From the IMG/VR virus record IMGVR_UViG_3300015371_000017, positions 1 through 64,000 of that record: 64,000 nucleotides of DNA; one strand, written 5' to 3'. This stretch comes from a virus. The notes beneath the pieces were generated by a model. The model was not told where the DNA came from. It did not search any database and was given only the letters and a program-made list of their open reading frames with translations. Below are positions 16,114-55,806 of this stretch, one piece after another (within the stretch, counting starts at the first letter, position 1; each line of letters begins with the position of its first letter). The position numbers were made by a program, and so were the translations under genes.

Positions 16114-16569
16114 AATTCTTTCCACTGCCCACACTGCTTGTCTAGCGGGGACAAATACAGACGGATCGTGAGGTTCGTTGTGCCAGTCACAATACTGAAA
16201 TTGTCGGAAGTTCTTCTCGCTGACAAAGAGATTTTCGTTTTCAGGATAACCGAAAATGTAAGGCGAACTCTTGCCCCATAACACTACGCCGTTTTTCAGT
16301 TTGTAATACGCGCATAGATGCGGCAGGAAACTATCTACGCTCACCCAGACATCACACTCGCCCACCAAGTCTCGAATCCGTGTTAAAGGTAGACCAATAC
16401 GGAATTCGTCTACTCCTTCAATTCGCTGCTCGCCTTGAATGCCAATCTGGATAATATGATGCTCGTTGGCTTTCAGCATGGTAACAAGTTCGGGCCAGTG
16501 CGGATATTCCTTGGCGGACTTCGCGCCGCTTGGAAGTTTAGCAGGGTATGGCGCGATTAAAATCTTCAC
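15982..16569 (-). CDS. Family-9-like glycosyltransferase, C-terminal half
   Basis: 195 residues from the GTG at 16569, which has GGAGG seven bases upstream and overlaps the GIY-YIG stop (GTGA). KILIAPYPAKLPSG, HWPELVTMLKANEHHIIQIG, CDVWVSVDSFLPHLCAYYKL and VVLWGKSSP follow the order of the nucleotide-sugar-binding C-domain of heptosyltransferase-like GT9 enzymes, including the DS-xxxH site. The matching N-domain is the end of the gene at 17544. The last 35 residues are low complexity and overlap the inverted cassette. Confidence 0.6.
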   Translation of the reverse strand: MKILIAPYPAKLPSGAKSAKEYPHWPELVTMLKANEHHIIQIGIQGEQRIEGVDEFRIGLPLTRIRDLVGECDVWVSVDSFLPHLCAYYKLKNGVVLWGKSSPYIFGYPENENLFVSEKNFRQFQYCDWHNEPHDPSVFVPARQAVWAVERILTAPLRLLAASQQSNKTTNDRHVHKSLPSRISSFEVAGNIKGK

Positions 16570-19184: not shown

Positions 19185-20472
19185 GCATTGATTCTGAAAC
19201 TAAAGGTGTCTCTAATGCGCGCCAGATGCCCGTATTAGGCACTTGTTCCGCGATTACCAACGAGTCAACCGCTTGAATTACACCAGGCCAATCAGAAGTG
19301 TAATCATGGCCGCAAAGTAACCCATCAGCAGTTAGACATGGACGCCAATTCATAATGTCCGCCGTGACTGAATCTACGTCATGTGCTCCGTCCACGAAGA
19401 TCATATTTACTGAGATTCTCAGTTGCCGCATCAACTTGGACGCAGCTAGGCTGTTCATGCGAAGGGGAATGACTCGCCCTGCGTCAATATGATCCCAAAG
19501 GTTTTTGCAAAACTGAAGGTATGCGCCGTCACCGTCATATTCCCTTGAAGCACTGAATGCCGGATCGTCACTCATCGCCCACGAATCAACTGCGTATAAT
19601 CGTCCGCCTTCTGGTAGGTTGTCAGCTAACGCTCGCGTACTGCGACCCATCCAGCTTCCAATTTCTACAATGACGGGATGCGTCTTTGCGGACTCCGCTA
19701 GCCATTGCAGTTCACTCTCCGACATCCAACCTTCGATTTGTTTGGCTCGTTCAATATCCACTGAACCATATCGCTGTCTCAGTAACTTCCGGTTTCTTTC
19801 AACCACTTCTACGTGATTTGGCAACTGTCCGAGCGTGGATTCTCCCTCATGTGAAATAGGAAATGACCCAACCCATCTTGATCGCTTCCACTCCGGTAAA
19901 TGCTCACTATTTGGTACGTGTTCTAATCGGCACTCTTCACCTACGGGAACTTGTACCCATTTCCATCCTGCTTGTTCTGCACGAACACAGAGATCGATGT
20001 CCTCGCCATAAAAGGGACTAAATTGCTCATCCAACCAACCGATCTCATTCAACATCTCTCTTCTTAACATCGCACAGAAGAAGATAATAAATTCATGTTG
20101 TGCGTCTTCACTCCAGAGTTTGTGTGAACCTGTTATTCCTACCTTTGGATCGGAGAACGGATCGGAGAGTAAATTAAGCCAGTGATTCTTTTCTTGAGTG
20201 AGAAGTTCGCAGTCGTCATTTAAGAGTACGACGTATTCCCCTTGCGACTCTTTTATCCCCGTGTTTACGGCGCGACTAAAGCCTTGTGGCTCATCAAACC
20301 AAAGTAATGTGAGAGGTATGCCCATTGACATAATCTCTCGCGTCTCAGGCGGAGCGCCATTTGCACATACGACAATCTCGCAATCATTCAAGTCCGTATA
20401 TTGAACAATAGATTTTAAGAGGGTTTTTAAGCCTCCTGTATTGAGGTACGTTGGGATGATAATACTTTTCAT
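19123..20472 (-). CDS. GT2 glycosyltransferase-methyltransferase fusion
   Basis: 449 residues. 1-215: family-2 glycosyltransferase (SIIIPTYLNTGGLKTLLKSI, VVLLNDDCELL, then FYGEDIDLCVRAEQAGW). About 245-420: AdoMet methyltransferase (VIVEIGSWMGRSTRALADNL, IFVDGAHDVDSV). ATG overlaps the stop of the collagen-like fibre gene (ATGA), so the two are translated together. Fibre glycosylation followed by sugar methylation is a reasonable inference. Confidence 0.75.
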   Translation of the reverse strand: MKSIIIPTYLNTGGLKTLLKSIVQYTDLNDCEIVVCANGAPPETREIMSMGIPLTLLWFDEPQGFSRAVNTGIKESQGEYVVLLNDDCELLTQEKNHWLNLLSDPFSDPKVGITGSHKLWSEDAQHEFIIFFCAMLRREMLNEIGWLDEQFSPFYGEDIDLCVRAEQAGWKWVQVPVGEECRLEHVPNSEHLPEWKRSRWVGSFPISHEGESTLGQLPNHVEVVERNRKLLRQRYGSVDIERAKQIEGWMSESELQWLAESAKTHPVIVEIGSWMGRSTRALADNLPEGGRLYAVDSWAMSDDPAFSASREYDGDGAYLQFCKNLWDHIDAGRVIPLRMNSLAASKLMRQLRISVNMIFVDGAHDVDSVTADIMNWRPCLTADGLLCGHDYTSDWPGVIQAVDSLVIAEQVPNTGIWRALETPLVSESMLGFGGFFASRSEMVHQASQG

Positions 20473-22007
20473 TCAGCCTCCCACATAAACACTTGCGCGC
20501 CGGGCGATCCGGTGACAGTCCACGCTATATCAAAAGTCGTTGCGCCGATGTTTTGCACGATTCCCACTACGCCTACGTTTGCTGCTGTGCTTATTACAAT
20601 ACCATTTGTGGTAGAAGTTGCAGCGGCCTGAGTAGTGGTGATGGCGGCTGTATTATAACTCTGAGATATGCTTCTATTCCCACTCGCATTAGCAACCCCG
20701 ATAGAAACCGTTGTTGGGGTAGCGGAGTTGTTGCCAGTAAAAGTTCCCATTCCATAAATTCTAATTATCTTTGGCGTTCTCCCCAAACCATGGGTTACGG
20801 ATGTTGTTTGCGTCGATGTAGAGGTAGTGCCCACCCCTGCTGTTGAGCCTATCGTTCCGGTTGCCCCAGACGTTCCCGAGAAACCGGAGACGCCAGAAAA
20901 TCCCGATGTCCCGCTTGCCCCTGAAGTCCCTGCGCCGCTTACCCCGGTGAACCCGGACGTGCCAGAAAAGCCAGACACTCCACTGAATCCAGAAATGCCG
21001 CTTGCGCCAGTAAAGCCTGAGATACCCGACGCGCCTGTAAATCCTGAGACTCCCGAAAAGCCAGAAGTACCTGCGGCCCCGCTGACACCAGTGAAACCTG
21101 ACTTGCCACTTGCTCCACTCGCGCCAGATACTCCGTCAGCACCAGTTGCGCCTGCTTGTCCACTCACCCCTGAAAACCCGGATGTACCCGACGCGCCACT
21201 TATCCCTGAGTCTCCTGAGAAGCCGCTTACGCCTGAAGCACCATCCGCGCCTGTTGCTCCTGCTTCACCGGAAAATCCAGATACGCCGCTAGCCCCGCTT
21301 GCACCGGAAGCCCCGTCTACTCCTATCGTTCCCGCTTCCCCGCTTACACCTGAATAGCCGGAAACACCTGAGTATCCAGAATCTCCCGAAGCCCCTGAAA
21401 CCCCACTGGCACCGGGATTCGCCCCACTAAATCCAGACTTGCCGGACGCTCCAGACGCACCCGAAAAGCCTGAAGCTCCATCAGCCCCAACTACCCCGCT
21501 TGCTCCGGTAAAACCTGATGTCCCTGAAGCGCCCGACGCCCCAGACGCTCCGGGGTTTGCGCCACTAAAACCGGACGTTCCAGAAGCCCCTGAACCTCCC
21601 GTGAAGCCACTAACGCCGCTGAACCCACTCTTACCACTTGCACCACTCGCTCCGCTTATTCCCGTGCCGCTGAAACCTGACTTACCGGAAGTTCCCGAAT
21701 ATCCACTGACACCACTCGTTCCCGGAGCGCCGGGGTTAGCTCCGCTATACCCAGACACACCAGAATAACCAGAGACTCCTGAAAACCCGGAAGCACCCGG
21801 ATTGGCCCCGCTGTATCCTGATTTACCTGAGTAGCCTGATTTGCCGGAATAACCTGACTTGCCTGAGAAACCTGAGTAGCCTGTATTGCCTACCGTAACG
21901 ACGCGGATTACTTGATCGCCCTGAACCTCAACTGTTTGAGTGTCGGAAACAGTGATGGTAGTTGGCGAACCAACTTCCTGAATAGTGATGTTGACGAGTT
22001 GAAGCAC
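20469..22007 (-). CDS. Large collagen-like fibre
   Basis: 512 residues, GTG start. A 45-residue N-terminal beta domain is followed by about 330 residues of collagen-like GxSG and GxxGxx triplets (GKSGYSGKSGYSG, GANPGASGFSG, GATGADGASG), then a C-terminal beta domain of about 110 residues (TQTTSVTHGLGRTPKIIRIY) that resembles small fibre-tip domains. It lies immediately upstream of, and coupled to, glycosyltransferase genes. Confidence 0.8.
   Translation of the reverse strand: MLQLVNITIQEVGSPTTITVSDTQTVEVQGDQVIRVVTVGNTGYSGFSGKSGYSGKSGYSGKSGYSGANPGASGFSGVSGYSGVSGYSGANPGAPGTSGVSGYSGTSGKSGFSGTGISGASGASGKSGFSGVSGFTGGSGASGTSGFSGANPGASGASGASGTSGFTGASGVVGADGASGFSGASGASGKSGFSGANPGASGVSGASGDSGYSGVSGYSGVSGEAGTIGVDGASGASGASGVSGFSGEAGATGADGASGVSGFSGDSGISGASGTSGFSGVSGQAGATGADGVSGASGASGKSGFTGVSGAAGTSGFSGVSGFTGASGISGFTGASGISGFSGVSGFSGTSGFTGVSGAGTSGASGTSGFSGVSGFSGTSGATGTIGSTAGVGTTSTSTQTTSVTHGLGRTPKIIRIYGMGTFTGNNSATPTTVSIGVANASGNRSISQSYNTAAITTTQAAATSTTNGIVISTAANVGVVGIVQNIGATTFDIAWTVTGSPGAQVFMWEAE
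20860..21890 (-). repeat. Collagen-coding imperfect nonanucleotide repeats
   Basis: About 1 kb of short, imperfect tandem repeats coding GxSG-type triplets on the minus strand. On the plus strand the same DNA gives long Pro-rich frames that are shadows. Such arrays change length by slippage. Shorter arrays of the same type lie at 13480-13720, 14035-14270 and 10020-10150. Confidence 0.8.
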
Positions 22008-25886: not shown

Positions 25887-26576
25887 CTATGCTGCCTGAC
25901 TTTCCATTACCGCAGGTGGAATGCTTGCTATTGTGCTCTGAAAATACTGCGCCCAGAGTTGGGACTGTTGAAGAAATTCGTCGTCCCTGACGAGAGCGGC
26001 GCATCCGCCACAAATCACTGCCTCAACCAACGAATCAGCTAAGGTGAAGTCTCCGTTTTGATCGTAAATTGCCGTTTGAACGTCGGCATCCCACACGCAG
26101 CCGATTAAGGTTGCCGTGGTTTGAGTATGTAGAATTTTATCAGGTGTCAGAGCAAAGTAATCTGCGGGTGCTAAGTATAGCGCGGGAGCTAACAGTCTGT
26201 TTCTCACTACGGCCACGGGCATCCGCGTTAGGGTCACGCCATCTTGATCTACTGCCCCGCCAAAGTTGCCGATAAACGGCGCGCCTGTTGAATCGGTTGA
26301 AGGTAAATCCGCGCCCGACGCTAAGGCGGCAGACGTTCCCCGAAGATATGCACGTAAGACTCGGTTGCCTGAGAGTGCAATAGCTTGAGCTAGTTTCCCT
26401 TGTGCTTGAACCAGCGAATCTCTTATCGCGTTAAAAGGGAAAATGCTGGAATCGAAAAGCTCGTCAACGAGCGGGCGCGTAGAATAAGTAGTCTGTAATT
26501 CTACGGGATCAGTGCCGACTAATGCGTTGACGCGCAGACTTGCGGAAGCGATTAAATCATGGCATTGTATAGACAT
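25887..26576 (-). CDS. Virion protein, 229 aa
   Basis: MSIQCHDLIASASLRVNALV begins a helical domain; the rest is mixed with an ALYLAPADYFALTP stretch. The AGGAGG ribosome site lies 12 bases upstream, within the coding sequence of the divergent HNH gene at 26575. Probably a connector or minor virion component; not recognised. Confidence 0.45.
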   Translation of the reverse strand: MSIQCHDLIASASLRVNALVGTDPVELQTTYSTRPLVDELFDSSIFPFNAIRDSLVQAQGKLAQAIALSGNRVLRAYLRGTSAALASGADLPSTDSTGAPFIGNFGGAVDQDGVTLTRMPVAVVRNRLLAPALYLAPADYFALTPDKILHTQTTATLIGCVWDADVQTAIYDQNGDFTLADSLVEAVICGGCAALVRDDEFLQQSQLWAQYFQSTIASIPPAVMESQAA

Positions 26577-27294
26577 GCTTCAGCCTACGCCTCCTGTGAG
26601 CGGATTGCTCACCCCTGTCAGATTCATCGAGAAACGTGGACGCCGCAACTTTTGGCTATATCGTTGTGAGTGTGGTAATGAAAAGATTTTACGATCCAGC
26701 ACAGACGCCAAATCATGCGGCTGTTCTCGTAAAGGGAAAGGCGCAACACATGGACTATGGGGTACGCGAGTATACTGGGCTTGGGCCGCCATGCTCCACA
26801 GAACGCGAACGACAAAGGGTACTATGTACGAAAAATACGGCAAGCGTGGAATTGGCGTATGCGAGCGATGGCTGAAGTTCGAGAACTTCTTTGCCGACAT
26901 GGGACATCCGCCCGTTGGCCCGTACTCGGTCGAGCGAAAAAACAACGACAAGGGATATAGTCCTGATAATTGCAAATGGGCACTTCCACCAGAACAATCA
27001 CGAAACACTAGGCGCAACGTCCGTCTTACCGTTAACGGACGCACCCAAGTCTTAATGGATTGGGCGATTGAAACGGGTATTCCCCACAGAACGCTGTCAG
27101 GACGCTTCAAGCTTGGCTGGACTCCAGAAGAAATCATCGGACTTGCGCCACGGCCATCAGATCGGCTGCTCACTCTAAACGATGAGAGCCACACCCTTAC
27201 TGAATGGGCAAGACTTCGCGGAATTAAACACCAGACACTTAGCTGGCGTTTACGCAACGGCAAAACACTTGCGGAAGCTTTAATTTCCATATAG
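26575..27294 (+). CDS. HNH homing-type endonuclease on opposite strand
   Basis: 239 residues from the ATG at 26575. Zinc-ribbon-like start (YRCECGNEKILRSS, KSCGCSRKG), KYGKRGIGVCERW, FENFFADMGHPPVGPYSVER, GYSPDNCKWALPPEQS, then two similar C-terminal helical modules (VLMDWAIETGIPHRTLSGRF and TLTEWARLRGIKHQTLSWRL). It is divergent from the virion gene at 26576 with a two-base overlap of starts. No Shine-Dalgarno sequence precedes it; an alternative GTG start lies near 26596. Confidence 0.85.
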   Translation: MLQPTPPVSGLLTPVRFIEKRGRRNFWLYRCECGNEKILRSSTDAKSCGCSRKGKGATHGLWGTRVYWAWAAMLHRTRTTKGTMYEKYGKRGIGVCERWLKFENFFADMGHPPVGPYSVERKNNDKGYSPDNCKWALPPEQSRNTRRNVRLTVNGRTQVLMDWAIETGIPHRTLSGRFKLGWTPEEIIGLAPRPSDRLLTLNDESHTLTEWARLRGIKHQTLSWRLRNGKTLAEALISI

Positions 27295-33500: not shown

Positions 33501-33635
33501 AAGATCGGGATCAACTCCGTGCTTCGTCCCTACATCGTTATAGAGCTGTCGGAAATCAACCGTAGGTCTGGTTTTCGCCCCTTTAGATTTAGGGGTCGAG
33601 AGAGAATCTAACAAAACATCGTAATCATCTGTCAC
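27582..33635 (-). CDS. Giant ejection protein with lytic transglycosylase
   Basis: 2017 residues. Residues 30-150 are a soluble lytic transglycosylase domain: LLYNQAKHESINFNP (catalytic Glu 53), GAAGIAQFMPDTARKYG, RLALAAYNAGTGF and ETRNYV. The long middle is Pro/Gln linkers and helical repeats (about 700-1400). The C-terminal 600 residues resemble the ends of large polyvalent phage proteins (RFLGKAMFAAPLEASRWEFL, LLAMNQGLLTATKSD). Such proteins are packed in the head, cut the peptidoglycan at entry and help form the DNA channel in podoviruses such as T7 gp16. It also seems to be the only peptidoglycan-cutting domain in the window. Confidence 0.8.
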   Translation of the reverse strand: MTDDYDVLLDSLSTPKSKGAKTRPTVDFRQLYNDVGTKHGVDPDLLYNQAKHESINFNPNFVFGPGRSPKGAAGIAQFMPDTARKYGLYVGKGRDDRFNPEKAADAHARLMKDLIDKYGDNRLALAAYNAGTGFTPQQARRAMQNIPETRNYVQKIAPQGDQYDQLLDSVGQQSPKPTTSSYDTKLSPQEERQFQIWKQQYAPKDSGGDYDLRGAFKAGLKPDPRTGHWPDTFKKPNHPTFSNESQYAVGADAAKAGHWEGDKFIPPSQGDEYDDLLDSIAPLKTPKVSVKLGEGAEMASPEEIAASKVLRPVEFRKGTKPVSLNPVEDVYEATSGGQVVPKGVAGLQARRYEFTPSQEVGERVALPLPKDSVPNEDAVVDAYLGTLGKDYVELGKRYKEETGHNILTLGGGTLKQDDKGNYYVRPTKGAIDFINAYAKGSDVAAQEAHRQADELIAAQNKAYEAAKPDVAQAKTAMQTGKNSPFLRGMIGGTAGAAQAFGSVIPGSLGNEFERQAAVERAASEQLNKESPLTTTGEKVKAGIGGLVPTAAMLIATHKLGPAQLAALGILEGSTPEERLRGGLQGASAQAVLSGAPAAFNEAGLPTTGKIVTGGAMVGQPAFEAWQRGESPTQAIVENLPFAALPFLHSKFGRVESVEDQSGVPKGEIRVREVDNPEATHVIIKPSTMRNQSAIPLKPESATPEPAPRGINTPSPETATSPAEQPPEAAHPVRAETTAIPPARITYADLQRELAVFNKKPYGEWDMVNNRVPAKDNPSNLSLQNAGIEEGDAVTFYAERERSGTVKADRHGGWFIEDSQGRPWGVQGILRDRTGYIEKSARASEGVDPWANPANYVTASERVQVAHNQSPEAILGSVRKVFDDKGKTSWDRVVSYDINPPNKPTIRVMLGIKGKSATVLIGPPRGEFMVEADEGNYRVPRVEMGTRAALAMKRYIQNAHPEITEFKFLRGGSTGGKYGRALKLAVPESRTSLDELPISPAPPIEEAKPPQETPEPPPSTTGIAHRVETAARGEEPIRGKAIGAEESVERGRELLREGNDPQEAIDSFQKSGAISAESMALVRAKHEELARVANQAFDKGGLNSPEFKAAEKARQQFYDDAVKPMQTAWSNTGRAQQGETDIDTGTFYGLYRAFKNAHTREPTPQEQRTLQNLSTRSARAESDVKDLSSRLAAELDKAAGIAELPKEIQTAVKRFIDQSAREFRREGRKQTRKSLDDEAAVIKTNLAAAFQKVKSQTGIQPSGIARLDPEGEITKQLVAYAKNRAKAGVTDAAQLIDDVHSTVKDFADVTRREVAEAILGAGLPKRERAESEWAKLKTGVRQEVKDYTTKEAREALGARLQGVKKISAKDASEVWKYARENYVDQGNTDFADVTQKVASDLGINPEQVRRSLANTTATRRISDEMWKRMADRRQAKQNAESWVRQADQNIFAKRFEDARRLFFIKATLGHGVVAPFTHAPVNLFIPSRWAEFWPNFGRTYKFLVDKGGHEQAMVDLEHSPNYIMAKRAGLANDPRRGYDEYQSPWMAKTLGKIGISGNRAFDSLKTMRQDLFDSAWNRLPEADRSSKMAELLAQEINSSTGASKALSGQGWPSRFLGKAMFAAPLEASRWEFLVRDNARALQAFGNWKKATPEARYMAKRVAARNAQLVVTYASLLAMNQGLLTATKSDDKINFTDPTKSDFLAFKVAGRTISPASGMLTAIRFMGTLASQAKNADLKKPKQAAEDMAKTTFYYGRSKLSPLFSTGADIALRSDYTGRPLPISQQEGTERLPRYSWLEYVLSQQTPIPIGEGVRDVYNTMREQGMSEGRTKGLLKALARAAPVMAVAATGIRVGHSYKPSPEQENKAAKQARDAQLVKDFRAGKITKDDLDAMREQDVLTKSEAGYDTTNPKTGEVTHHAGTIEKQGANSDYQSTFENMFNDQALTKYERLRKYNDPRADEVADIMAKKAWSLIHSDALTEKQKADFQQRINALGITPVNPQKRKPSSPFSRRFLSAP

Positions 33636-35050
33636 TGAATCAATCCACGCTTACGAGCGCGTTCAACTGCCGTATCAGGGTTAAGTCCTTTTGCTTTTGC
33701 CGCGTCACGAATTTGCTGCTCAGTTACACTGGTAGGCTTCCCGTAAATCGGATGATCCAAATCGCTAGAACCTTGACGTGGCTTGGTATAAGGATACCCA
33801 CCCGTTCCCGATCCCCATTCGTTGTCAGGGTCAATACGATTCATCTTGTCTGCGTTAAGCGCACCTTCTTCAACCAAGTCTTTGCGTTTATTTTGCAGCA
33901 CCCTTAACTTGTTTGCGTCTTTCTCGTTTTTGATTTGATCATCTATCGCAGTCAACTTACGGTGAACACTATTTATCACCGCTGCTGTTTCTGCCATGTC
34001 CTTACGTTCAGCAGGAGTAATCTTGCGACCTTGCCCCGCGTTCGTTCCGCGCATTGCTGCCCGTTGATTCGCTCCCGTTTGCGCCGCCGCTGCGCGTCTG
34101 TTACGTCCGGCTTCTAGTGTGTTTTGCATGGACGCCACGGGCTTTTCACCTTGCAATACAGGTTTGTCCGCGCCCGTTCTCTTGTTCACTAAAATGTAAT
34201 TTCCGCTGGAGTCAACCGCTAATTGACCTTGAGTACTAGGTGGTAACTTAGTTCCCACAGGCAATCCCATGCGGCTTGCAATCTCGTCTCGCAAATCTTC
34301 ATTGTCATCAGCCGCGCCTGAGTTATAAAGTCTCTGGGCATCCTGAGCAGCTTCATGTTTAGCCATCGTATCCCATCGTTTGTTATGGGAGTCCATTTGC
34401 TGACGGCGAATCGACAGAGTTCCTTGCTGGCCTTGTTGTCTGCTTGCCAACACCGCCGCTGATTTCGCAGGTACTTGAGTCCACGTACCATCAGGAAGCT
34501 GAAAAGGAACCATCTGCCCTTGCTCTATCGCAACACGATTCTTATCTAATGCAACATCCCGCCCTAGTCGGTTTTCAACTTCACCCGCATCTCTTTGTCT
34601 GCGAGTCGGAAGAGAATGATAACCAAGATTAGTAGCGACGTTCTGAGCAACTAATCCTAGTTTCCCTCTTAGTCCTAAAGGTTGACTTTCAATCTCGCGA
34701 AGATGTTCCGCATCAAATGAAGTTGGATCGGCAATGCGCGGTCTGGTTTGTCCTTGAGTTAATCGATCAATGAACGGACTCTTAGTTACAGTGCGCGGAC
34801 GTGTGACGTTCTCTTGATTTGTTGGTGTAAGAACCTGCCGTTGCGGTTCTTGCGGAATATTTTCCCACTGCTGCGTTGTGTCATTGTAAATCGGATCGGA
34901 TTGAGACGATTGTTGGCCTGTGACCATTCGGGGGCGTGTTGGCTCTTGAGGCACACGTTCTAACAGGTCACCCAAATCGCCACCAGCAAAACCGGGAATG
35001 TCGTATAGAGTTGGTCGTCGTTTGCGGTTGAATGCGTCTAAAAAGGCCAT
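33632..35050 (-). CDS. Second ejection/internal virion protein
   Basis: 472 residues, Arg/Gln/Pro-rich and largely disordered (PTRPRMVTGQQSSQSD, RTVTKSPFIDRLTQGQTRPR) with a helical coiled-coil centre (DDQIKNEKDANKLRVLQNKR) and a C-terminal helix-loop (QQIRDAAKAKGLNPDTAVER). It overlaps the giant ejection gene by four bases and follows the portal, the usual place of podovirus ejection proteins. No clear ribosome site; the HNH cassette lies directly upstream. Confidence 0.5.
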   Translation of the reverse strand: MAFLDAFNRKRRPTLYDIPGFAGGDLGDLLERVPQEPTRPRMVTGQQSSQSDPIYNDTTQQWENIPQEPQRQVLTPTNQENVTRPRTVTKSPFIDRLTQGQTRPRIADPTSFDAEHLREIESQPLGLRGKLGLVAQNVATNLGYHSLPTRRQRDAGEVENRLGRDVALDKNRVAIEQGQMVPFQLPDGTWTQVPAKSAAVLASRQQGQQGTLSIRRQQMDSHNKRWDTMAKHEAAQDAQRLYNSGAADDNEDLRDEIASRMGLPVGTKLPPSTQGQLAVDSSGNYILVNKRTGADKPVLQGEKPVASMQNTLEAGRNRRAAAAQTGANQRAAMRGTNAGQGRKITPAERKDMAETAAVINSVHRKLTAIDDQIKNEKDANKLRVLQNKRKDLVEEGALNADKMNRIDPDNEWGSGTGGYPYTKPRQGSSDLDHPIYGKPTSVTEQQIRDAAKAKGLNPDTAVERARKRGLIQ

Positions 35051-35068
35051 AACGTCACACTAATCCCG

Positions 35069-35147
35069 TGTTATAATTCAGCCTGCGAGAGCGCGGTAAA
35101 CGCCCCCGCAGACCTGCCACATTCTGAAAGGAGATAGCTTTCAAAAC
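35069..35147 (+). promoter_or_regulatory. HNH cassette promoter and SD-hiding leader
   Basis: TGTTATAAT (35069-35077) is an extended -10 promoter with no good -35 box. The leader has a CTGCG...CGCAG hairpin and a second one, TGAAAG (35125-35130) with CTTTCA (35138-35143), loop of seven, covering the AAGGAG ribosome site. The start codon follows five bases later. Same plan as at 8349 and 55732. Confidence 0.65.
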
Positions 35148-35702
35148 ATGAGTAACGGCAAACCTAACCCTGTTCCACCACAACTGACAAGCGAACAAAT
35201 TCTGCGATTTTGGTCTTATGTCGATAAGACTCCCGGCCAAGGGCCAAATGGTGAATGCTGGGAATGGAAACGCTCGCTTAGACGTGGCTATGGGCGTTAC
35301 AACCTTGGACACAGAGGGCGAACATTGAAAGCAAATCGCGTAGCAATGTTTTTGACAACCGGAATATGGCCTACGCAAAACGCTCTGCATCATTGTGACA
35401 ATCCACGCTGTTGCCGTCCTAGTCATCTGTTTGAAGGTAGCAATCGAGACAATACTGAAGATGCAATGAAAAAGGGACGCTTGGCCTCTGGAGATAACAA
35501 CGGAATGAGAAAACACCCAGAAAGCGTTAGACGCGGAAGTGCCAGCCCGCGCGCCAAGCTGACGGAGAGCGAAGTGATCAAAATGAGGCAGCTTTATGCT
35601 ACGGGCAAATATGGGCATAGGACTCTAGCTCGACGGTTTGGCATTGCTCGAAGTTCAACATGGCGCATATTAAAACGAAAAGGTACGTGGTTACATGTCT
35701 AG
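35148..35702 (+). CDS. HNH homing-type endonuclease on opposite strand
   Basis: 184 residues. CWEWKRSLRRGYGRYNLG, KANRVAMFLTTGIWP, NALHHCDNPRCCRPSHLFEG and GSNRDNTEDAMKKGR are the classic HNH_3-type motif order, followed by a C-terminal HTH (KLTESEVIKMRQLYATGKYG, TLARRFGIARSSTWRILKRK). Inserted tail-to-tail against the portal gene (four-base overlap) with its own promoter. Confidence 0.9.
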   Translation: MSNGKPNPVPPQLTSEQILRFWSYVDKTPGQGPNGECWEWKRSLRRGYGRYNLGHRGRTLKANRVAMFLTTGIWPTQNALHHCDNPRCCRPSHLFEGSNRDNTEDAMKKGRLASGDNNGMRKHPESVRRGSASPRAKLTESEVIKMRQLYATGKYGHRTLARRFGIARSSTWRILKRKGTWLHV

Positions 35703-38302
35703 GCAGCTTTTGGTTTCACTTTAGGTTTGGCTTTCTGGACTTTAAGAGCATTTTCGCCAGCTACCTTTGCGCTTTCTATCGCGTTTTGCCCTTGCTGCTT
35801 GGTCACGGCCAACTGGATATCACCCTCTAGTGCTTTCGTTTTAAGTTCGTGCTCTTGTTTCGCAAGCTGACTATGTGCCTCTAGTTCTCTGTCCTGCGCA
35901 TTCTGATCGGCTTCGTGTTGGGTAGTATCCTGCTCAGGCGACTCTTGGCCTTGCAGCATCGCGCCGCCGATTGCCGCGGGTGCTGCCCCAGCGGCTTGAA
36001 CCATTCCCGTATTGATCGCTTGTGGTAACGCGGCCTGAGTCATCAGATTCTCATGTAAATTCCACATGCCCTCTGCGGCCTGACGCAATACAAGCGGCGC
36101 TTTCTGCGCAGAGTCAAGATCAAGCCAGTCGCTCCACCATTGCTGTTTCTCTTTCTGTTTGGGTTCATACCTACTTGGCGGTGGAGTAATCATGGAAACT
36201 AACTCGTTCGGATCGTTAACCCCTGCTTCAAAGTTCTCTTTCATCTGCTCTAATCGAGTTAGACACAACGTAGAAATCTCGTCCGCACTTTCTACACCTA
36301 ACTGAAGCCCTGCAAACGGTCGCGTAATTGCCTTGAATAATTCAGGGTCAGTCTGCTTCAACTGTGACAATAAAATCGGGTTTCCACCAAAGGCTTGCAG
36401 CAACGCAGTCACATCGGAAATCTGAGAATAAGGCGTAACTGGTAAATGACTGCCTTCAGCCAACTCAAAAATCACCCTACCTTTAAGCGACTTCGCATCT
36501 ACTTCTCGCCCTCTTGCGTCTCCTTTACCGGGAAAGAACCTTGATACCACACCAAATTTAGCTTGAAGACTAACAATCTTCTTGGCTATCTCCACTCTCG
36601 ATTCAGCCTTGCTCATTAACATTGGCCCATACAAAGAATTGGCGAGCGCAGCAGAAATCTGCGCGCCTGTGGCTGTCCGATTATCAATAGAAAGTAAATC
36701 TGAGAACTCCACGGCAAGAGAGGAAAGATTCGCCATGTTCTTGCCTAAGAACTCAGTTCCATAGGCCATGAACTGCTGAGAAACCTGTCCCGGTTGGGGT
36801 AAATAAATCGCATCCTGCATTCTCATTCCCACAGGAAGCATAGAAAGGTTTACGTTGTGATTTACCCCCGGCTTGAATAGATAGTTTCCACTATCCTCTC
36901 TAAGCATTCTTAGATCAACAAACACCGGAGGGGTTGCAGTGGTAGCAAGTCCCTGATAAATCTGTCCGTCTACTGCGTTAAAACGTCTCTGAACAGCGGC
37001 GGTGTCTTCCATGCCCCGCCCAGCCCCAGACTCCGCATCCATGTACCACTGGCACGTTACAACCTCTTGTTGTTGACTCTCTCCGGCGTAGGTAGCGAGA
37101 ATTAACGCCCCATCATTAAATCCCACAACACAAATTGGTTGCCCTTGGAAGAAATTACTTATCCTTCCTTTGGGCATGGTCACGCCGCAGATCGTCTCCC
37201 CTTCGTCACACTCAATCTCTGCTTGGTCTTCAGGGCTTAACCACGCCTCAAACATTGTCGGACGCTCTTTACTTTGGTCGCGTCCATATTGCGCGGTCAT
37301 GGACTGGCCTTGAAACGCTTGGCCGCTGTAGGTAAGAGCGTGAAGGATGTCTAGTCCATAATCATCTGAACTCGCACTGGCAGGGATCACCACATCACCC
37401 AAAGCTAATTTAATCGTGCCGGGAGTAACGTATTGGCGTTTAATTGCCCAACTGGATTTCTCTAAATCTACTGCCAGATTCCATCTCCACGATGCGAGAG
37501 AAGATGAAATAATCTCCGGCTCGCCCGTAGGTTGCGGTGCGCCCATTGAAATCTGACTTAGAGTTTGTGTCTCAGGCGGTCTTACGTCTGTAGCTTCACT
37601 CTGACACTGAGGACACGTATATCCAAAATCGTTCGGCTCAAAATCTTCTGCCGCGCCTTCAAAGTCACAGTCCGCACAATGCCCTTCGCCCGGATCAACT
37701 TGTTGATCTATCTTTCCTACTTGGCGAGTAGGTACAGACATTCCCTTAAAGGGATTCCACCGAACTTGATGAATGAAAATCCCGTCTGTGAGTAATCGGA
37801 TTGCTTCTCTGCGCGTAAACTTTGCCGTGTACCAATCAGTCTCATAACAATCAACTACAGGCCGACACGCTTGCGCAGCGGCGATAGCTTCCGGGGTATC
37901 GTCACCCGGTCGCATGTTCACCGTGGGATTGACGGCCATCAGTTTCGACTCGCTTATCTGCGAATGAAACGTCATCAGGTTCATTGCCGTCTGACGATAA
38001 GTATCATCATTCTGAATTGGACGGACGTAATACCCAACCTGCCCAAATGGACGACGCATTAAAAGCTGATCGCCCTTTCTGAATAACGAAACTAGCTGTG
38101 CTCGCGAGTAATGCTCATCCCAAACACGCTTTTCATAATTCAATTTGGCAGTGAGCCACTTTTGGAAAGACTCCTGAAATCTCCCTTGGGTCTTGGGGAT
38201 TTTCCGACTTTGAATTGTCTCTTCTATTGGCTTGCGAGGCGCGAAATTCGGACTAGTTCTACTGAGAACTACTGAGAGATTGGTAAAGGGATTGTCGGCC
38301 AT
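35699..38302 (-). CDS. Portal protein with inserted zinc ribbon
   Basis: 867 residues. Size, position and the large acidic, Gln-rich helical C-terminus fit podovirus portals. Stretches such as VSLFRKGDQLLMRRPFG, ADEISTLCLTRLEQ and the central FPKG-type strands fit the family loosely. Residues 209-233 carry C-A-D-C ... C-P-Q-C, an inserted zinc ribbon, in the region normally forming the wing. It would form the dodecameric ring through which DNA enters and leaves. Assignment rests on size and context next to TerL and ejection genes. Confidence 0.65.
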   Translation of the reverse strand: MADNPFTNLSVVLSRTSPNFAPRKPIEETIQSRKIPKTQGRFQESFQKWLTAKLNYEKRVWDEHYSRAQLVSLFRKGDQLLMRRPFGQVGYYVRPIQNDDTYRQTAMNLMTFHSQISESKLMAVNPTVNMRPGDDTPEAIAAAQACRPVVDCYETDWYTAKFTRREAIRLLTDGIFIHQVRWNPFKGMSVPTRQVGKIDQQVDPGEGHCADCDFEGAAEDFEPNDFGYTCPQCQSEATDVRPPETQTLSQISMGAPQPTGEPEIISSSLASWRWNLAVDLEKSSWAIKRQYVTPGTIKLALGDVVIPASASSDDYGLDILHALTYSGQAFQGQSMTAQYGRDQSKERPTMFEAWLSPEDQAEIECDEGETICGVTMPKGRISNFFQGQPICVVGFNDGALILATYAGESQQQEVVTCQWYMDAESGAGRGMEDTAAVQRRFNAVDGQIYQGLATTATPPVFVDLRMLREDSGNYLFKPGVNHNVNLSMLPVGMRMQDAIYLPQPGQVSQQFMAYGTEFLGKNMANLSSLAVEFSDLLSIDNRTATGAQISAALANSLYGPMLMSKAESRVEIAKKIVSLQAKFGVVSRFFPGKGDARGREVDAKSLKGRVIFELAEGSHLPVTPYSQISDVTALLQAFGGNPILLSQLKQTDPELFKAITRPFAGLQLGVESADEISTLCLTRLEQMKENFEAGVNDPNELVSMITPPPSRYEPKQKEKQQWWSDWLDLDSAQKAPLVLRQAAEGMWNLHENLMTQAALPQAINTGMVQAAGAAPAAIGGAMLQGQESPEQDTTQHEADQNAQDRELEAHSQLAKQEHELKTKALEGDIQLAVTKQQGQNAIESAKVAGENALKVQKAKPKVKPKAA

Positions 38303-39980: not shown

Positions 39981-41876
39981 CTATTTAAGCGGCTGGCCCC
40001 AGCAGTCAACCTCTTTTGGCGCGTCCTGCTTCACGGTCTTCCTTGCTAACCACAAAGCTAACTCTGCGCTCATTGCTGCTCGGCTAGGATCGACATCAGA
40101 TCGCTTCTGTAGCTCATCAAATCTGTACCCAGCGGGTATTGCCGCCTGAAGTTTCTGCGCTGGTGTCATACCCACACTTATTGGCCCAAAAGTTACCATC
40201 AGCATTCTCGTGGCGTCGCAAGAATCCTCGTCTTTCTTCATCGGCTGTTCAACCGTCATTCCTGATTTCGTCTCTTCAACCTTGCGCGACTTCCATTTGT
40301 AGGATTGATCGCGATGGGTTTTTAGTCCTAAGTCATCTTTAAGGCGCGCCACTGGAAACTGATCGGAGATCGTAATATCAAACCATGAGGGGCATCCGAT
40401 CTTCCACAATCCGTCCAGCTCCTTTTCATCTCTATGAAACGGGTGCGGCCTTTTTCTGTCAGGATATAAGTAGTGACGCCATTGAGACACACCAGCCCAT
40501 TTATCGCTGTCGCAAGGCTGAAAATGCCATCCTAATTCTTCGTTTAGCGTAATTCGTTCGCCTCGTTTCTCGTGCGACATGAATTGACGTTCTATTTTCT
40601 CATCAGGCCACATTCTTGCCCGCACTTGAGGCTCCATTGTGTTGAGACTGGTATTTGTAAATACACAGCCACGATAGCGAAAAATGCTCCCCGCTAACGG
40701 ATAACCCTCCGGAACTTTTGTTAAAAACGTCCACGCTGTTTGGTGTCCGGTCGTAAAACCCAAATCAAGTCCGACATCGCAAGCCCACTCAGACGGTATA
40801 CGACGTACTCCGTACAACGCCTCGAACTGATCCCAAGTAATTAGATGGGTCTTATTAGCCCGATCATCATACTCTGGCAAAACTCGGTCAATCTGTTCAC
40901 CGGAAAAATCGTGTTGGTACTCCGCCACGAACCCTTCGTATCCAGAACGATCCAGAAACGATTGACATTCAGCCATATCGATAAACGGCCACGTTGGTGT
41001 ACCTCCTACAATCACACTACGCGGCCCTTTGTCTGTCTGTTGATGCTCAATTTCAATTTCATCAAACGCCTTGATCGGATTGTCTCCGCGACGTAACGCA
41101 AGAATATCCGTTTGCCGAGTGTGTATCCGATTGAGAACCGAATTTGAGTGAATGAGATTCTGGGCAAAAACTACTTTGGTTCTTGCTGTGCCCATCGGCA
41201 AAATCTTTTTAGATATGCGCTTCTCTTTTTTAAGGATAACTTCTGGCGAGTCATCATCATCGTCAATGTCGTCAAGGATGATAAGCGACACACGAGTATC
41301 CCCACGCTTCCAACCACGAATTGCTTTATCCAAACCTACGGGCCGCACAGCCCACCCGTTACCCGTCATTAGATAATCTTGCCGCCAACCGTAGGCCGCG
41401 CCTTTGCCCTTTTTGTGCTCGCCAATTTCCGGCTTTTGCATCCCCGGATAAGCACGAGATAATTCACCCTCTGCTTCAATACGCTCTCGAATGGCCTCTA
41501 CGTGCGCTTCCGCTTGTTCCGCCGTGCCCGATACATACAATACAAACCCTTTTCCAATTAGGCATCCTTCGGCTATTGCAAGCCATTCTGCGTTTGTGCT
41601 TTTTCCTAAACCACGCCCCCATATTGCGAGATAAGTCAGGTCTTCCAAATCCATCGCTTGCCCTGCGCGTTGTTTGTTAGTAAGCGGCCAATACCAATCC
41701 CATATATCGCGATGGAAATCAGAGAAATCCCCACTGAAACTATGCGGCCCAAGAGTCTTCAGCCACGTCTCCCACCCTTGTCTCTCAAGTAACGCTCCCT
41801 TCGACGGACGAAACTGCCCACTTGCTCGTATCCGCAGGACTTCTTTTTGAATCTCTCTGAGTGTTTCAGGCTTCAT
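39981..41876 (-). CDS. terL: Terminase large subunit
   Basis: 631 residues. Walker A GRGLGKST (about 87-94 in this numbering), Walker B SLIILDDID about 105 residues later, then C-terminal nuclease residues in CDVGLDLGFTTGHQTAW and KKDEDSCDATRMLM. It packages DNA into the prohead and cuts concatemers. ATG at 41876 (MKPETLREIQ) is preferred; a TTG five codons upstream is possible. It lies 8 kb from TerS with the capsid genes in between, an unusual order. Confidence 0.9.
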   Translation of the reverse strand: MKPETLREIQKEVLRIRASGQFRPSKGALLERQGWETWLKTLGPHSFSGDFSDFHRDIWDWYWPLTNKQRAGQAMDLEDLTYLAIWGRGLGKSTNAEWLAIAEGCLIGKGFVLYVSGTAEQAEAHVEAIRERIEAEGELSRAYPGMQKPEIGEHKKGKGAAYGWRQDYLMTGNGWAVRPVGLDKAIRGWKRGDTRVSLIILDDIDDDDDSPEVILKKEKRISKKILPMGTARTKVVFAQNLIHSNSVLNRIHTRQTDILALRRGDNPIKAFDEIEIEHQQTDKGPRSVIVGGTPTWPFIDMAECQSFLDRSGYEGFVAEYQHDFSGEQIDRVLPEYDDRANKTHLITWDQFEALYGVRRIPSEWACDVGLDLGFTTGHQTAWTFLTKVPEGYPLAGSIFRYRGCVFTNTSLNTMEPQVRARMWPDEKIERQFMSHEKRGERITLNEELGWHFQPCDSDKWAGVSQWRHYLYPDRKRPHPFHRDEKELDGLWKIGCPSWFDITISDQFPVARLKDDLGLKTHRDQSYKWKSRKVEETKSGMTVEQPMKKDEDSCDATRMLMVTFGPISVGMTPAQKLQAAIPAGYRFDELQKRSDVDPSRAAMSAELALWLARKTVKQDAPKEVDCWGQPLK

Positions 41877-45118: not shown

Positions 45119-46414
45119 TTACGCGCCCATGCCAACGTCAACCTGGCGGACAATGTTTGTACTTGAAGCCCGTTTGACTGTACTCACCGCGAGTGGTTTG
45201 TTCAAGCCAATAGTCCAACTTGTTCCCCACATGCGGTAGTAGTTGCGCGAACCAGTCAGGTTTACGCCGGGAAGATTTCGCCACTGGAGGTTGTCAGGTT
45301 GAATGTCGCCAAACGCGAACTCAGTGCCCTTTTCCAATGCGTCACCCTTGAAGAACGAGGAACGATCCTCTTCCCAGTTGGACATTTCAAGAATGCGAGT
45401 ACCGTCAGCGTCTTTGTAGCCACCAGCGATGTCTACTACAGGTTCATCACCGCCGGTGCGATGGAAACCATAACCCTGCACTCTCAAATCAGACATTAGG
45501 CCGGGAGTGACGAGATTCGTTAATCCCGCTCTCGCCCCCTTGTCGATGTTGAGAACGACTAATTGGGTTTTGACCTTCTCCCGATCCGAAACCGTGAACT
45601 TCGTGCCATTCAAATCAATCGACGGACAGTTAAGAACTGTGTCCACCGAAGTATCGCGGCCTTGGAAAATCCGGTTGTTGTCGTCAATACATCCCGAAAC
45701 ACCCATCGGCGCGGCCATATATCCGCCTACGTCACAGATCGGATTTCCCGACGTAACGACACCGGACAAAAGCGTAACCGTAGCTTGGGTTTTGTTATTT
45801 GACGACGTAACCAGAATCGTTCCTTCAGGAAGTCCGGTGGTTGTATCGAAACTCTGATAATACTGATTCTGCTTCAGTCTCACCGCGCCCTTGGTGTGGC
45901 CCGGTGTGGCGTCTGCTGAAGTATCACAGGTCAAAGTCTGTCCTGCGCCCACTACGGTCAGCGAAGCAGACGAATAAGCCAAAGCGCCCGTACCGTCACC
46001 ACAAGCGAAGAACTCCTGATGTTGGGCGGCAGCGTCAACGGTCTGCTTAACAATCTCTTGGATATTAAACATTGCGTTGGCTTTCTTTGGGCCGCGATCT
46101 CCTCCAGCATCCACCATCAAAAGATAGTCGATAACCATTGAGATCGAATACATCTGCGGGACAACCCACATCGAGTCTGACTGACTTGGAATTGCCCGAT
46201 TGTTATCCGGCGAAGCAAGAGTCGGTAGGGAATGCCCTCCTGCTTGGGTTTTCACGAAGTAGTACCGCCAACCCCGTTGAGAGGTTTCGACGGCGTTAGT
46301 GATCTCACCGATTGAATTCCACAAGGGGGCAGCAAGCACCGACCAATCTTGCGAGCGAATAAGCTGCTGGGCGTAGAAATCGACCCAGTTGTTTACACTA
46401 TCAACTTCTGGCAT
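45119..46414 (-). CDS. Major capsid protein, HK97-fold type
   Basis: 431 residues, acidic, no Cys-rich regions. N-terminal helix with FYAQQLIRSQDWSVLAAP, an ITNAVETSQRGWRYYFVKT strand, a beta-rich insertion (residues 160-260) and a C-terminal GTSWTIGLNKPLAVSTVKRA tail. It follows a 527-residue scaffold-like gene by 11 bases. Size, composition and place identify it as coat protein, though the fold assignment is by analogy. Confidence 0.75.
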   Translation of the reverse strand: MPEVDSVNNWVDFYAQQLIRSQDWSVLAAPLWNSIGEITNAVETSQRGWRYYFVKTQAGGHSLPTLASPDNNRAIPSQSDSMWVVPQMYSISMVIDYLLMVDAGGDRGPKKANAMFNIQEIVKQTVDAAAQHQEFFACGDGTGALAYSSASLTVVGAGQTLTCDTSADATPGHTKGAVRLKQNQYYQSFDTTTGLPEGTILVTSSNNKTQATVTLLSGVVTSGNPICDVGGYMAAPMGVSGCIDDNNRIFQGRDTSVDTVLNCPSIDLNGTKFTVSDREKVKTQLVVLNIDKGARAGLTNLVTPGLMSDLRVQGYGFHRTGGDEPVVDIAGGYKDADGTRILEMSNWEEDRSSFFKGDALEKGTEFAFGDIQPDNLQWRNLPGVNLTGSRNYYRMWGTSWTIGLNKPLAVSTVKRASSTNIVRQVDVGMGA

Positions 46415-46425
46415 TTGATTGCTCC

Positions 46426-48009
46426 TTATCCGAATTGACGCTCAATTTCCTGTCGTGTCAGAAATATCTGACCCGCAGGGCGTTGAGCGGGGGCGGTTGC
46501 CGGATTGAAGCCTGTACCGTTTACCGGGGGTCGCACCGTAGCCGCGCCGTTCAAGGTAGAGTTGTAGTTGCCAGCTTTCATCTCAAAGAAATCACTCAAC
46601 AGGGCTTTCACCGCTTTAGTAATGGCATTTCCATTACCCTTCAGGTTACTGGCGGCTTTACGAGCGTTGGACTGTAATGTTCCCAGCCCGCCCGGTACGT
46701 TACCATTCTGCCCATAACCTAATTGCCCTGCGTCACGAGTGTTGTTCGCGTACTCTTGTCTTGCTGCGTTGAACTTCTGAAGTATTTCATCAGTTACTCC
46801 CAGTCCCTTGAGTACGTCTTGAGCAAGCCAAGATGTATCAGGAACAGAAAGCGCGGCAGTGACTAGAGCCACGAAGTTTCCTACACCCGCATTTACCTGT
46901 TGAGCTTTTTGATTGAACTGCGCCACTGCCTCCGGCCCCATCTTTTGTGCCTCCGGGGACTGAGGATCGATCGGCGCGATGAATTTGCTGTTCTCTACAA
47001 CATTATCGCGATACTCGGTAAACAACTGCCTAAACCCTTCTTCCACAGCTTTGTGCCCAGCCTCTTCCGCTTGTTGGGCGTGATAGGCTTCGGCTCGTTG
47101 CTGTCGCTGGGTCTCAATTTCCCTCGCCTTCCGATTTTCCTCTTTCGTTTGGAATTGGTCTTGTTTCTCCTCAAGATATTCCTTAATGAATTCGGGATCG
47201 TTTAGCTTTAGGGATTGCCGCTTATCGTAAGGCAAATCTTTGTAGACTTTCTGTAGTGCCTCCTCTTGCGGAGTTAGGTTATCAGGGTCTACAGCGATTG
47301 CCGCCGTAATTTGCGACATCTCTTGTTCAGTTGCTTGCCAAGTTGGTGCTATCGAAGTCGGTTCAACCCCACCCAAGAGTTTTAATGCCGCTGCGCGTCT
47401 TTCTGGATCGCGTCGCATTTCTTCCAGCGCCAGATCAATTCGGGGAATCTCTCGCCCATCGTCGGTACGAGTGAGTCCATTCATTAAATCTGCGGCTAGA
47501 TAGTCTGCGACTAAAGGATCGCGTTGCGCTAACTCTTGAGCTACCTTTTCAGTGGCGGGAACAAGTTGACCATCAACCCGTTCGTATGTACCGAAAAGCT
47601 TGTCATGCCACTCAACGGCTGCTTGGAGTTCTTCAGAAGTCTGAAACCGATCTAAAATCGGTTCAGCTATCTTTAGTTTCTCTGCTTGCTCGCTAAGTTG
47701 GGGTTTGAAAGTCTGTTCAATAGCTTGCCGCATCTGTACCAGCGACTTTTTGTACTGAAGATTGTCATCTAACTGGTTGAGTTCGTCTAATGACGGAACA
47801 CCAGCGAGAATGTCATCTTCAGTTGTCGTGGTTTGAGTTGCGGTTCCTTGAACATTGGCGGTCGTATCGTGACCTTGCGATTGCTCCGTAGGTTGTGGAG
47901 CGCCAGATGTATCCGTTGTGGAGCTTGGCGTGTACTCCCCGCCTGTTGAGGCGGCAACGTCGGACTGTACGTTGGGTGCGCCAATAGAACTTTCTACTTG
48001 CACGGCCAA
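46426..48009 (-). CDS. Scaffolding-like protein
   Basis: 527 residues, Gln/Glu/Ala-rich. Disordered N-terminus (GGEYTPSSTTDTSGAPQPTE), long helical core with charged heptads (KEENRKAREIETQRQQRAEA) and a C-terminal tail with positively charged end. These are standard scaffold features and it precedes the coat gene. TTG start at 48009 or GTG at 48003; neither has a clear ribosome site. Confidence 0.65.
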   Translation of the reverse strand: MAVQVESSIGAPNVQSDVAASTGGEYTPSSTTDTSGAPQPTEQSQGHDTTANVQGTATQTTTTEDDILAGVPSLDELNQLDDNLQYKKSLVQMRQAIEQTFKPQLSEQAEKLKIAEPILDRFQTSEELQAAVEWHDKLFGTYERVDGQLVPATEKVAQELAQRDPLVADYLAADLMNGLTRTDDGREIPRIDLALEEMRRDPERRAAALKLLGGVEPTSIAPTWQATEQEMSQITAAIAVDPDNLTPQEEALQKVYKDLPYDKRQSLKLNDPEFIKEYLEEKQDQFQTKEENRKAREIETQRQQRAEAYHAQQAEEAGHKAVEEGFRQLFTEYRDNVVENSKFIAPIDPQSPEAQKMGPEAVAQFNQKAQQVNAGVGNFVALVTAALSVPDTSWLAQDVLKGLGVTDEILQKFNAARQEYANNTRDAGQLGYGQNGNVPGGLGTLQSNARKAASNLKGNGNAITKAVKALLSDFFEMKAGNYNSTLNGAATVRPPVNGTGFNPATAPAQRPAGQIFLTRQEIERQFG

Positions 48010-52091: not shown

Positions 52092-52244
52092 TTGACCGAG
52101 AATAATCACGTTAGGTGCTTGACTCCCGCACTAGAATTTGAGAGAATCAGGGTGTTCAAAGAAGCGGCCCTGCCAGTGTTACAGCACCGACAAGGCCATA
52201 GCCACAACCTGATTCACCGTGTTAAGGAGAAAATCAAGTCATGA
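52092..52244 (+). CDS. Small basic protein, 50 aa
   Basis: TTG start with AGGAGG five bases upstream. MTENNHVRCLTPALEFERIR leads to a helical, His-rich end. The stop overlaps the next ATG (ATGA). The strong ribosome site decides the TTG start. Function unknown. Confidence 0.5.
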   Translation: MTENNHVRCLTPALEFERIRVFKEAALPVLQHRQGHSHNLIHRVKEKIKS

Positions 52245-52657
52245 CCAACCCAAATTCTAGTGAAGAGCCGCTCCGGTTTCAAGTGTATTACTCTGGCGGG
52301 CCGGGCACTGTGCCCGAATGGTATTTAGTCTCTGAATGGGCCTCGCAAGCTGCGGCTGAGGACTACATCAAACATCACGACCATTACGGTGCGCTGTGGG
52401 CCGTAATTGATTCCTTTTCTTGCGGCATCAAACATGAAATCTCGTGTGATAGCGACTGCGGTGCGGAAACAAACGGCCTAAGCCTATCGCCCGACCCGGA
52501 GAGCAATCAATGGTACGCTTTCTATTTGCATGACACCGTAGGTCGTGATGGTTACTTCGGCGCAGCGTCCCAAGTTGTAGCTGGCCCTGTACCCACCGAA
52601 TCGTCACTCAAGGCACTGATCGCAGTGGTTGGCACTGACGGGAGGTTCCGCCAATGA
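52241..52657 (+). CDS. Hypothetical protein, 138 aa
   Basis: Aromatic and acidic protein with RFQVYYSGGPGTVPEWYLVS and a Cys pair (ISCDSDCGAE). AAGGAGAAAATC ribosome site; overlaps both neighbours by four bases, so it belongs to a tightly coupled small-gene operon with the transposase. Not recognised. Confidence 0.5.
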   Translation: MTNPNSSEEPLRFQVYYSGGPGTVPEWYLVSEWASQAAAEDYIKHHDHYGALWAVIDSFSCGIKHEISCDSDCGAETNGLSLSPDPESNQWYAFYLHDTVGRDGYFGAASQVVAGPVPTESSLKALIAVVGTDGRFRQ

Positions 52658-52941
52658 CCGACGTAGCTTGCATTTGTCCCGTAGTAGAAATCCGCGATAG
52701 CGGCGATTTCGTTACTGAGGCTATGATGCTGAAGATCGCCCGTGATCTGAGAGCTACCGTCACGCTGTCAAATCCGAAGTCGCACAGAACGGTATTCGGC
52801 AAACACCTGATGACTTGCCCTTGCTGGACGCGATCATCTGAAGGCTTTAAGGCGGGGCTGTGCGTAGGCCGTTTTGGAACTAACTCAGATGGGTGTACGA
52901 AGTGCGGGCTGTCTCGCGCAGATCACGGGGAGGCGCAATGA
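52654..52941 (+). CDS. Cys-rich hypothetical protein, 95 aa
   Basis: Cys at CICPVVEI, MTCPCWTRSS, GLCVGRF and CTKCGLSRADHG; the last four could bind zinc. A basic helix lies in the middle (LKIARDLRATVTLS). Four-base overlaps with genes on both sides, including the transposase start. Confidence 0.5.
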   Translation: MTDVACICPVVEIRDSGDFVTEAMMLKIARDLRATVTLSNPKSHRTVFGKHLMTCPCWTRSSEGFKAGLCVGRFGTNSDGCTKCGLSRADHGEAQ

Positions 52942-55731: not shown

Positions 55732-55806
55732 TGTTATAATAGCCAAAGTCGCCAACGGGTTCTGTCCGCTGACGACTCATTCCAAAACCTATGATGGAGG
55801 TTTCAG
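55732..55806 (+). promoter_or_regulatory. HNH cassette promoter and SD-hiding leader
   Basis: TGTTATAAT (55732-55740), extended -10. The leader contains a GTCG...CGAC hairpin with inner CGG/CCG, then AAACCT (55785-55790) with AGGTTT (55798-55803), loop of seven, hiding GGAGG. ATG starts three bases later. It matches the elements at 35069 and 8349 in order and spacing. Confidence 0.65.

Follow-up and report, generated by a model that had tools for sequence, protein, structure and literature searches.

A predicted leader RNA that partly covers the ribosome-binding site precedes endonuclease genes and unrelated genes of phages and mobile elements

Two of the three reported HNH endonuclease genes of a soil phage, and one unrelated gene of the same phage, begin with a predicted folded leader RNA of about 70 nt that partly covers the Shine-Dalgarno (SD) sequence. 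This fold is a widespread, apparently unnamed RNA element found in front of many unrelated phage and mobile-element genes in two bacterial phyla. The analysis was performed on a window of 64,000 nt (positions 1 to 64,000) of the 75.1-kb virus record IMGVR_UViG_3300015371_000017, to which all coordinates refer unless specified.

Results

Three HNH genes with a promoter-like sequence and an SD hairpin

An initial annotation had proposed that three HNH genes, here named A, C, and D, share an extended -10 promoter followed by a first hairpin and by a second hairpin enclosing the SD, that structure rather than bases is kept, that the whole cassette travels with the gene, and that the arrangement recalls I-TevI of T4. 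The observation itself was confirmed, as the three promoter-like sites and the three SD hairpins lie exactly where they had been placed. The features of the three loci, together with a fourth leader that had not been noticed, are as follows.
35069-35077 (+), extended -10 promoter-like TGTTATAAT of leader C, a consensus match only
35076-35150 (+), leader RNA C, with a first hairpin (CTGCG 35083-35087 with CGCAG 35107-35111), a linker, an SD hairpin (TGAAAG 35125-35130 with CTTTCA 35138-35143), and the ATG
35148-35702 (+), HNH endonuclease gene C (HNH_3; PHROG 1872/59)
8422-8430 (-), extended -10 promoter-like TGGTATAAT of leader A
8346-8419 (-), leader RNA A, with the CTAACCAA linker and the SD hairpin CTTTCT/AGAAAG at 8353-8370
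7710-8348 (-), HNH endonuclease gene A (PHROG 374/3377 family)
55732-55740 (+), extended -10 promoter-like TGTTATAAT of leader D
55741-55809 (+), leader D, with an AGTCG/CGACT hairpin and the SD hairpin AAACCT 55785-55790 with AGGTTT 55798-55803
55807-56281 (+), HNH gene D, same family as A, broken by a frameshift (two frames, 55807-56013 and 55916-56281)
52162-52243 (+), fourth leader RNA, ending at the ATG of a non-HNH gene
52241-52657 (+), gene for a 138-aa protein of unknown function behind the fourth leader

The complete SD hairpins (arm/loop/arm) are TGAAAG/GAGATAG/CTTTCA (C), CTTTCT/GAACGG/AGAAAG (A), and AAACCT/ATGATGG/AGGTTT (D). In leader C, two SD hairpins compete, TGAAAG/CTTTCA or the family-like TCT/AGA. 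The HNH assignment was supported for all three proteins, with C matching PF13392 over its cut-off, A matching PHROG 374 (E 8.5e-72), and D matching PHROG 3377 in both frames.

The motif TGNTATAAT was found four times in the window against 1.06 expected (3 of 100 shuffles reached four), and the same four times in the whole record, three of them just before genes A, C, and D. The leaders of A and C folded better than shuffled sequences, with minimum free energy (MFE) z values of -2.15 (A) and -1.51 (C), but only -0.60 for D, whereas 21 other genes of the window averaged -0.08. Among 31 window genes with an ATG and an SD, A was the only one in that scan with a perfect SD hairpin of 5 bp or more, C having been left out because its SD lies 14 nt from the ATG.

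These three genes do not represent all endonuclease genes of the phage. A second HNH gene (8736-9320, -; NUMOD3 and HNH) has the fourth TGCTATAAT 50 bp upstream, inside the preceding tail-fibre-like reading frame, and no hairpin leader. An HNH gene of the same family as A (26575-27294, +), antisense between two structural genes, has no visible SD or leader, and a GIY-YIG endonuclease gene with NUMOD3 repeats (16566-17540, -), directly after a glycosyltransferase-like gene, is without a leader of its own. An AP2-HNH gene outside the window (71921-72415 of the record, 7921-8415 of locus L089) carries TGTTATGAT and a different, very stable leader of 130 nt (z -3.6), in which a CCCTGTCGA hairpin is followed by six T, and GTGCAACAG is repeated at the SD with CTGTTGCAC between, an arrangement that looks like an attenuator or switch. 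Elsewhere in the window, three related DNA methyltransferase-like genes with nearly the same N-terminus (3592-4284, 4362-5030, and 61737-62366) and collagen-like GASGFSG repeats in several probable tail-fibre proteins (20469-22007, 13465-14016, and 9333-10178) were observed.

The leader in relatives and in unrelated contigs

To determine whether the layout is found in relatives of the phage, we retrieved and read contigs with a related capsid or terminase gene (among them G003, G005, G007, G008, G009, and G010 below). Their HNH genes show the same layout, namely, a -10 such as TGnTATAAT or TGnTAAAAT, a GC-rich hairpin, a linker, and then a hairpin around the SD, with 65-73 nt from the -10 to the start codon. 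Folding energies of the leaders of this group had z values mostly near -2 (range -0.4 to -3.2). In contrast, HNH homologues taken by protein similarity alone mostly lack the promoter and leader (few of 93 genes have TGnTATAAT), so the leader does not simply follow the protein family. A search of viral contigs with P0001 returned few relatives.

Among HNH genes of the A family from unrelated contigs, several share the layout and the linker CTCTnACCAAGCC. We scanned all viral contigs for linker, SD, and ATG, with nothing specified about hairpins or genes, and obtained 12 places. Five have neither hairpins nor a sensible gene and are chance, whereas seven (six distinct) fold into the full structure, and every one of these precedes an HNH gene, of three different kinds (zinc-type HNH_3, the A family, and AP2-HNH). 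An MFE/RNAalifold consensus on a plain MAFFT alignment of 16 leaders gave no structure because the arms are misaligned, which was solved by a hand-set structure on eight leaders and realignment. The resulting alignment of eight leaders (A2, from which the covariance model R1 was built) shows 10 of 18 pairs with changes on both sides, with a covariation score of 0.427 against 0.134 for shuffled sequences and at most 0.115 when the partners are slid.

The leader is not restricted to HNH genes

R1, whose best hit in the window is leader A, found the leader in 23 of 397 genomes of the order of Rhizobium subbaraonis (E at most 1e-3), again ending at start codons but mostly before other genes, including tyrosine recombinases, small prophage proteins, and membrane proteins. 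Lack of covariation among homologues had been named beforehand as an outcome that would count against the hairpins. In an alignment of 32 leaders (A3), which contains no window sequence, 17 of 18 pairs show changes on both sides, 85.9% of cells are paired (58.4% when shuffled), and the covariation score is 0.551 against 0.148 for shuffled sequences and at most 0.088 for slid controls, with all four SD-hairpin pairs covarying. Part of A3 was fitted to the structure, so the slid and shuffled controls matter.

The covariance model built from A3 (R2) found the leader in 22 of 385 alphaproteobacterial and 11 of 296 actinobacterial (Actinomycetota) genomes at E of 1e-4 or better per genome, although the models were calibrated briefly and E-values are therefore rough. 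Of 83 leaders, 73 end exactly on a start codon and 69 are followed by an open frame of at least 50 codons. The downstream proteins are unrelated (mean column identity 8%), and the named families among them are HNH endonucleases, phage integrases, excisionase/AlpA-type HTH proteins, and an IS1380 transposase. The HNH share is inflated because some loci were fetched by HNH homology. Small genomes with two to six leaders each were also encountered (loci L275, L281, and L261; genomes G736 and G656), and in some of them an inverted repeat CTCATTGTGAG/CTCACAATGAG, a candidate repressor operator, lies at the leader start, the genes behind the leaders being short and alike. BLAST searches with single leaders found mainly fragments but led to P1312, Yong-M3-232, Che8, and TM4. 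In Thermobifida phage P1312 (locus L205, 1440-1590), a full first hairpin and a linker-like stretch precede a 30-codon frame and a replication-type gene, with no HNH gene.

A blind search of the phage record

R2 contains no sequence of this phage group and thus offers a blind test. On both strands of the 75.1 kb, it returned exactly three hits with E up to 10, all ending on start codons: leader C (24.0 bits, E 9.6e-5, the best hit), leader A (24.0 bits, E 9.8e-5), and 52162-52243 (23.9 bits, E 1.0e-4). The 138-aa protein behind the third hit has no recognised family. Behind this gene, 52893-53855 encodes a protein that resembles IS1595-type transposases by eye (a zinc ribbon and then a DDE-like part), for which PHROG gives unknown function. 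Leader D was not found even with filters off, although its architecture is similar by eye. It is therefore not confirmed as a family member and is either a look-alike or a diverged copy in front of a broken gene. Among the relatives, leader G003b scored E 4.5e-7, and both G009 leaders were hit at exactly the coordinates read by eye, though weakly (9.4 and 9.3 bits). G003a, G005, G007, and G008 were not recognised at their leaders despite sharing the architecture, and like leader D they score below or near noise.

The cassette at site C and its promoter

To evaluate whether promoter, leader, and gene move together, we compared the flanks of the insertions with those of relatives. At site C, the flanking genes (portal-like, 35699-38302, -, and 33632-35050, -) are 2, 3, and 0 nt apart in G003, G009, and G010, respectively, whereas in the window the following segment lies between them.
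35051-35698 (+), 648-nt insertion holding promoter, leader, and HNH gene C, on the strand opposite to that of the flanking genes
The promoter is 18 nt from one boundary, and the HNH stop codon overlaps the portal stop codon, which supports the claim that the unit moves as a whole. No flank homologues were found for sites A and D. The gene next to insertion C has no obvious SD (35020-35050), having lost the one that its relatives place in the end of the portal gene, so the insertion may reduce its translation.

In 22 leaders of HNH genes, a -10 of at least 5/6 matches lies 0-4 nt before the first hairpin in 20 (shuffled mean 4, maximum 9), and an extended TGn is present in 13 (shuffled maximum 2), although some of these leaders were noticed because of TATAAT. 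In the wider family, a fixed -10 was rejected. Promoter and RNA are therefore separate modules joined in the HNH cassettes.

Discussion

The interpretation given in the initial annotation was only partly supported: structure is kept rather than bases and the cassette carries its own promoter-like sequence and leader, but the findings do not support that the leader belongs to HNH genes or that it parallels the T4 device. The reading we favor, with reasonable confidence, is that of a structured 5′ untranslated RNA of about 70 nt comprising a stable first hairpin (P1/P2, with a 6-7-nt loop), a single-stranded linker (consensus CUnACCAA-CC), and a weak hairpin P3 of about 4-6 bp with a 6-7-nt loop that holds the SD, followed by the start codon. 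The family form of P3 pairs AACCU with AGGUU or AGGUC. By ensemble calculation, the mean probability that the SD is paired is only 0.53 over 60 leaders, so hiding is partial, suggesting tuned initiation rather than a tight lock. In this view, transcription of this phage's HNH cassettes most likely starts just after TGnTATAAT, so that the transcript begins at P1, and the cassette moves as one piece of promoter, leader, and coding region, without a terminator of its own at site C. In this reading, the RNA element itself is older and wider than the HNH genes, and the many unrelated genes of phages, prophages, and other mobile elements that it precedes seem to have picked it up repeatedly. P1/P2 would keep the 5′ end closed and the linker open, the linker would be a landing (standby) or regulator-binding site, and P3 would lower and tune initiation, giving a gene placed in a foreign or antisense context its own modest, self-contained expression. 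Conservation of the structure, its exact position at start codons, and insertion of the whole unit are established by our analysis, whereas the start of transcription, repression by P3, the role of the linker, and any cleavage or homing activity of the HNH proteins are inferred from sequence alone.

Other readings of the element were considered. It is possible, though tentative, that the leader is a standby or enhancer device in which the first hairpin and the open linker let the 30S subunit wait next to a weak SD hairpin, ensuring efficient translation of a lone gene rather than repressing it. The weakness of P3, the half-time pairing of the SD, and the conserved linker, unpaired in the model, agree with this, but a conserved linker sequence is more than standby needs, and covariation of the four P3 pairs suggests that pairing at the SD itself is selected. 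A trans-acting RNA or protein regulator shared by mobile elements, binding the linker and the P2 loop to open or lock P3, could explain the unpaired bases conserved beyond what folding needs (GC before P1, AA at the end of the P2 loop, and the CUnACCA linker). This remains doubtful, as no partner was found, without a systematic search, and as the unrelated downstream proteins make simple self-regulation unlikely.

A DNA-level element, in which the inverted repeats are operator or promoter sites for a DNA-binding protein and the RNA fold is incidental, is unlikely. Pope et al. preferred DNA binding for the ESAS repeats of cluster K phages (PMC3203893), and A-rich sequence and promoters lie at the start of the element, but its arms differ freely between members while pairing is kept, whereas an operator would keep its sequence, and the element ends exactly at start codons and includes the SD. 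An I-TevI-like timing switch, in which the hairpin blocks translation from read-through early transcripts and a later promoter escapes it, appears very unlikely. HNH genes and an SD in a hairpin are found in T4 and Aeh1 (PMC2988022), but here the promoter-like sequence lies upstream of both hairpins, so its own transcript would carry them, and the same leader precedes non-HNH genes. Chance selection by eye of ordinary structured leaders, which D alone would not contradict, is refuted for A and C by the blind search, and covariation far exceeds both controls. A loop-linker pseudoknot (UGGU with ACCA) was dropped because it fits some members only, as judged by eye, and pairing of the P1 3′ arm with the SD fits members with GAGG in P1 but not A.

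These results link scattered endonuclease cassettes, integrases, excisionases, and unknown prophage genes through one RNA fold that can be searched for, and show an HNH gene inserting together with its own promoter-like sequence and putative translation control. They also offer a testable explanation for the start-associated sequences (SAS) of mycobacteriophages, unexplained since 2011. Covariation gives a concrete structure to mutate, and because TM4 and Che8 are grown in the laboratory strain M. smegmatis mc2 155, the question can be tested directly. A broader reading, which we consider possible but less likely than not, is that the leader is an unnamed, widespread class of cis-acting RNA serving as a standard portable 5′ untranslated region for genes of phages and other mobile elements in Alphaproteobacteria and Actinomycetota, that it works through one shared mechanism acting on the linker and the SD hairpin, and that the SAS are a fixed-sequence offshoot of it.

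The leader was compared with several known systems. No Rfam 15 family reached the gathering threshold in the window, and none matched the leaders in 5 and 16 related loci at E up to 1 and 10, respectively, although earlier notice of this motif in published motif lists cannot be excluded. The radC RNA motif (RF01754) is also a 5′ element of Proteobacteria and is present elsewhere in two of the same genomes, but it spans 149 positions and none of its significant hits coincides with the present leaders. Among the structured candidates associated with mobile elements or repeats (Narunsky et al. 2024, PMC11109978), MRSC-65-2 was set aside as a single long stem, a comparison that does not extend to the other 249 such candidates.

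The RBS-sequestering hairpins of T4 and Aeh1 homing endonucleases (I-TevI, I-TevII, I-TevIII, segB, and mobE) likewise combine a homing-type endonuclease gene with an SD in an RNA hairpin linked to a nearby promoter (PMC2988022), and enclosure of the SD, although partial, was also found here. However, the free-standing T4 endonuclease genes are promoterless or use middle and late promoters, seven of them appearing to be promoterless cassettes, and the hairpin forms on early and middle read-through transcripts, whereas the late promoter's transcript lacks the 5′ arm and escapes it. In the present leaders, the promoter-like -10 is not placed to allow such an escape, a second hairpin and a conserved linker exist, and the leader is shared with unrelated genes.

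The nearest known elements are the SAS, with or without ESAS, of cluster K mycobacteriophages (PMC3203893), with similar motifs in cluster EF Microbacterium phages (PMC7302621). The SAS is a short element with the SD inside GGG-ATAGGAG-CCC just before the start codon, present in multiple copies before unrelated genes and of unknown role, and putative promoters lie within ESAS of Adephagia (PMC11373665). It differs in having a nearly fixed sequence within a phage cluster, whereas the present family varies in sequence and keeps pairing, and RNA hairpins were doubted for ESAS repeats (PMC3203893). The 13-nt GGGATAGGAGCCC, allowing at most two mismatches before the start codon, is absent from leaders A, C, and D. 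Homology is suggested but not proved, as the two best plus-strand hits of R2 in TM4 at annotated start codons, 46450-46520 (E 0.026) and 40653-40732 (E 0.52), are SAS sites but weak matches. R2 also hit a site in Che8 with E 1.9e-5, and a BLAST match to the same region of Che8 occurs in 87 mycobacteriophage records. The Che8 leader lies at 46407-46479. Moreover, several TM4 SAS sites (locus L295, 32437, 40710, and 47735) have a strong GC hairpin and an AC-rich linker upstream, the same layout as the leader family.
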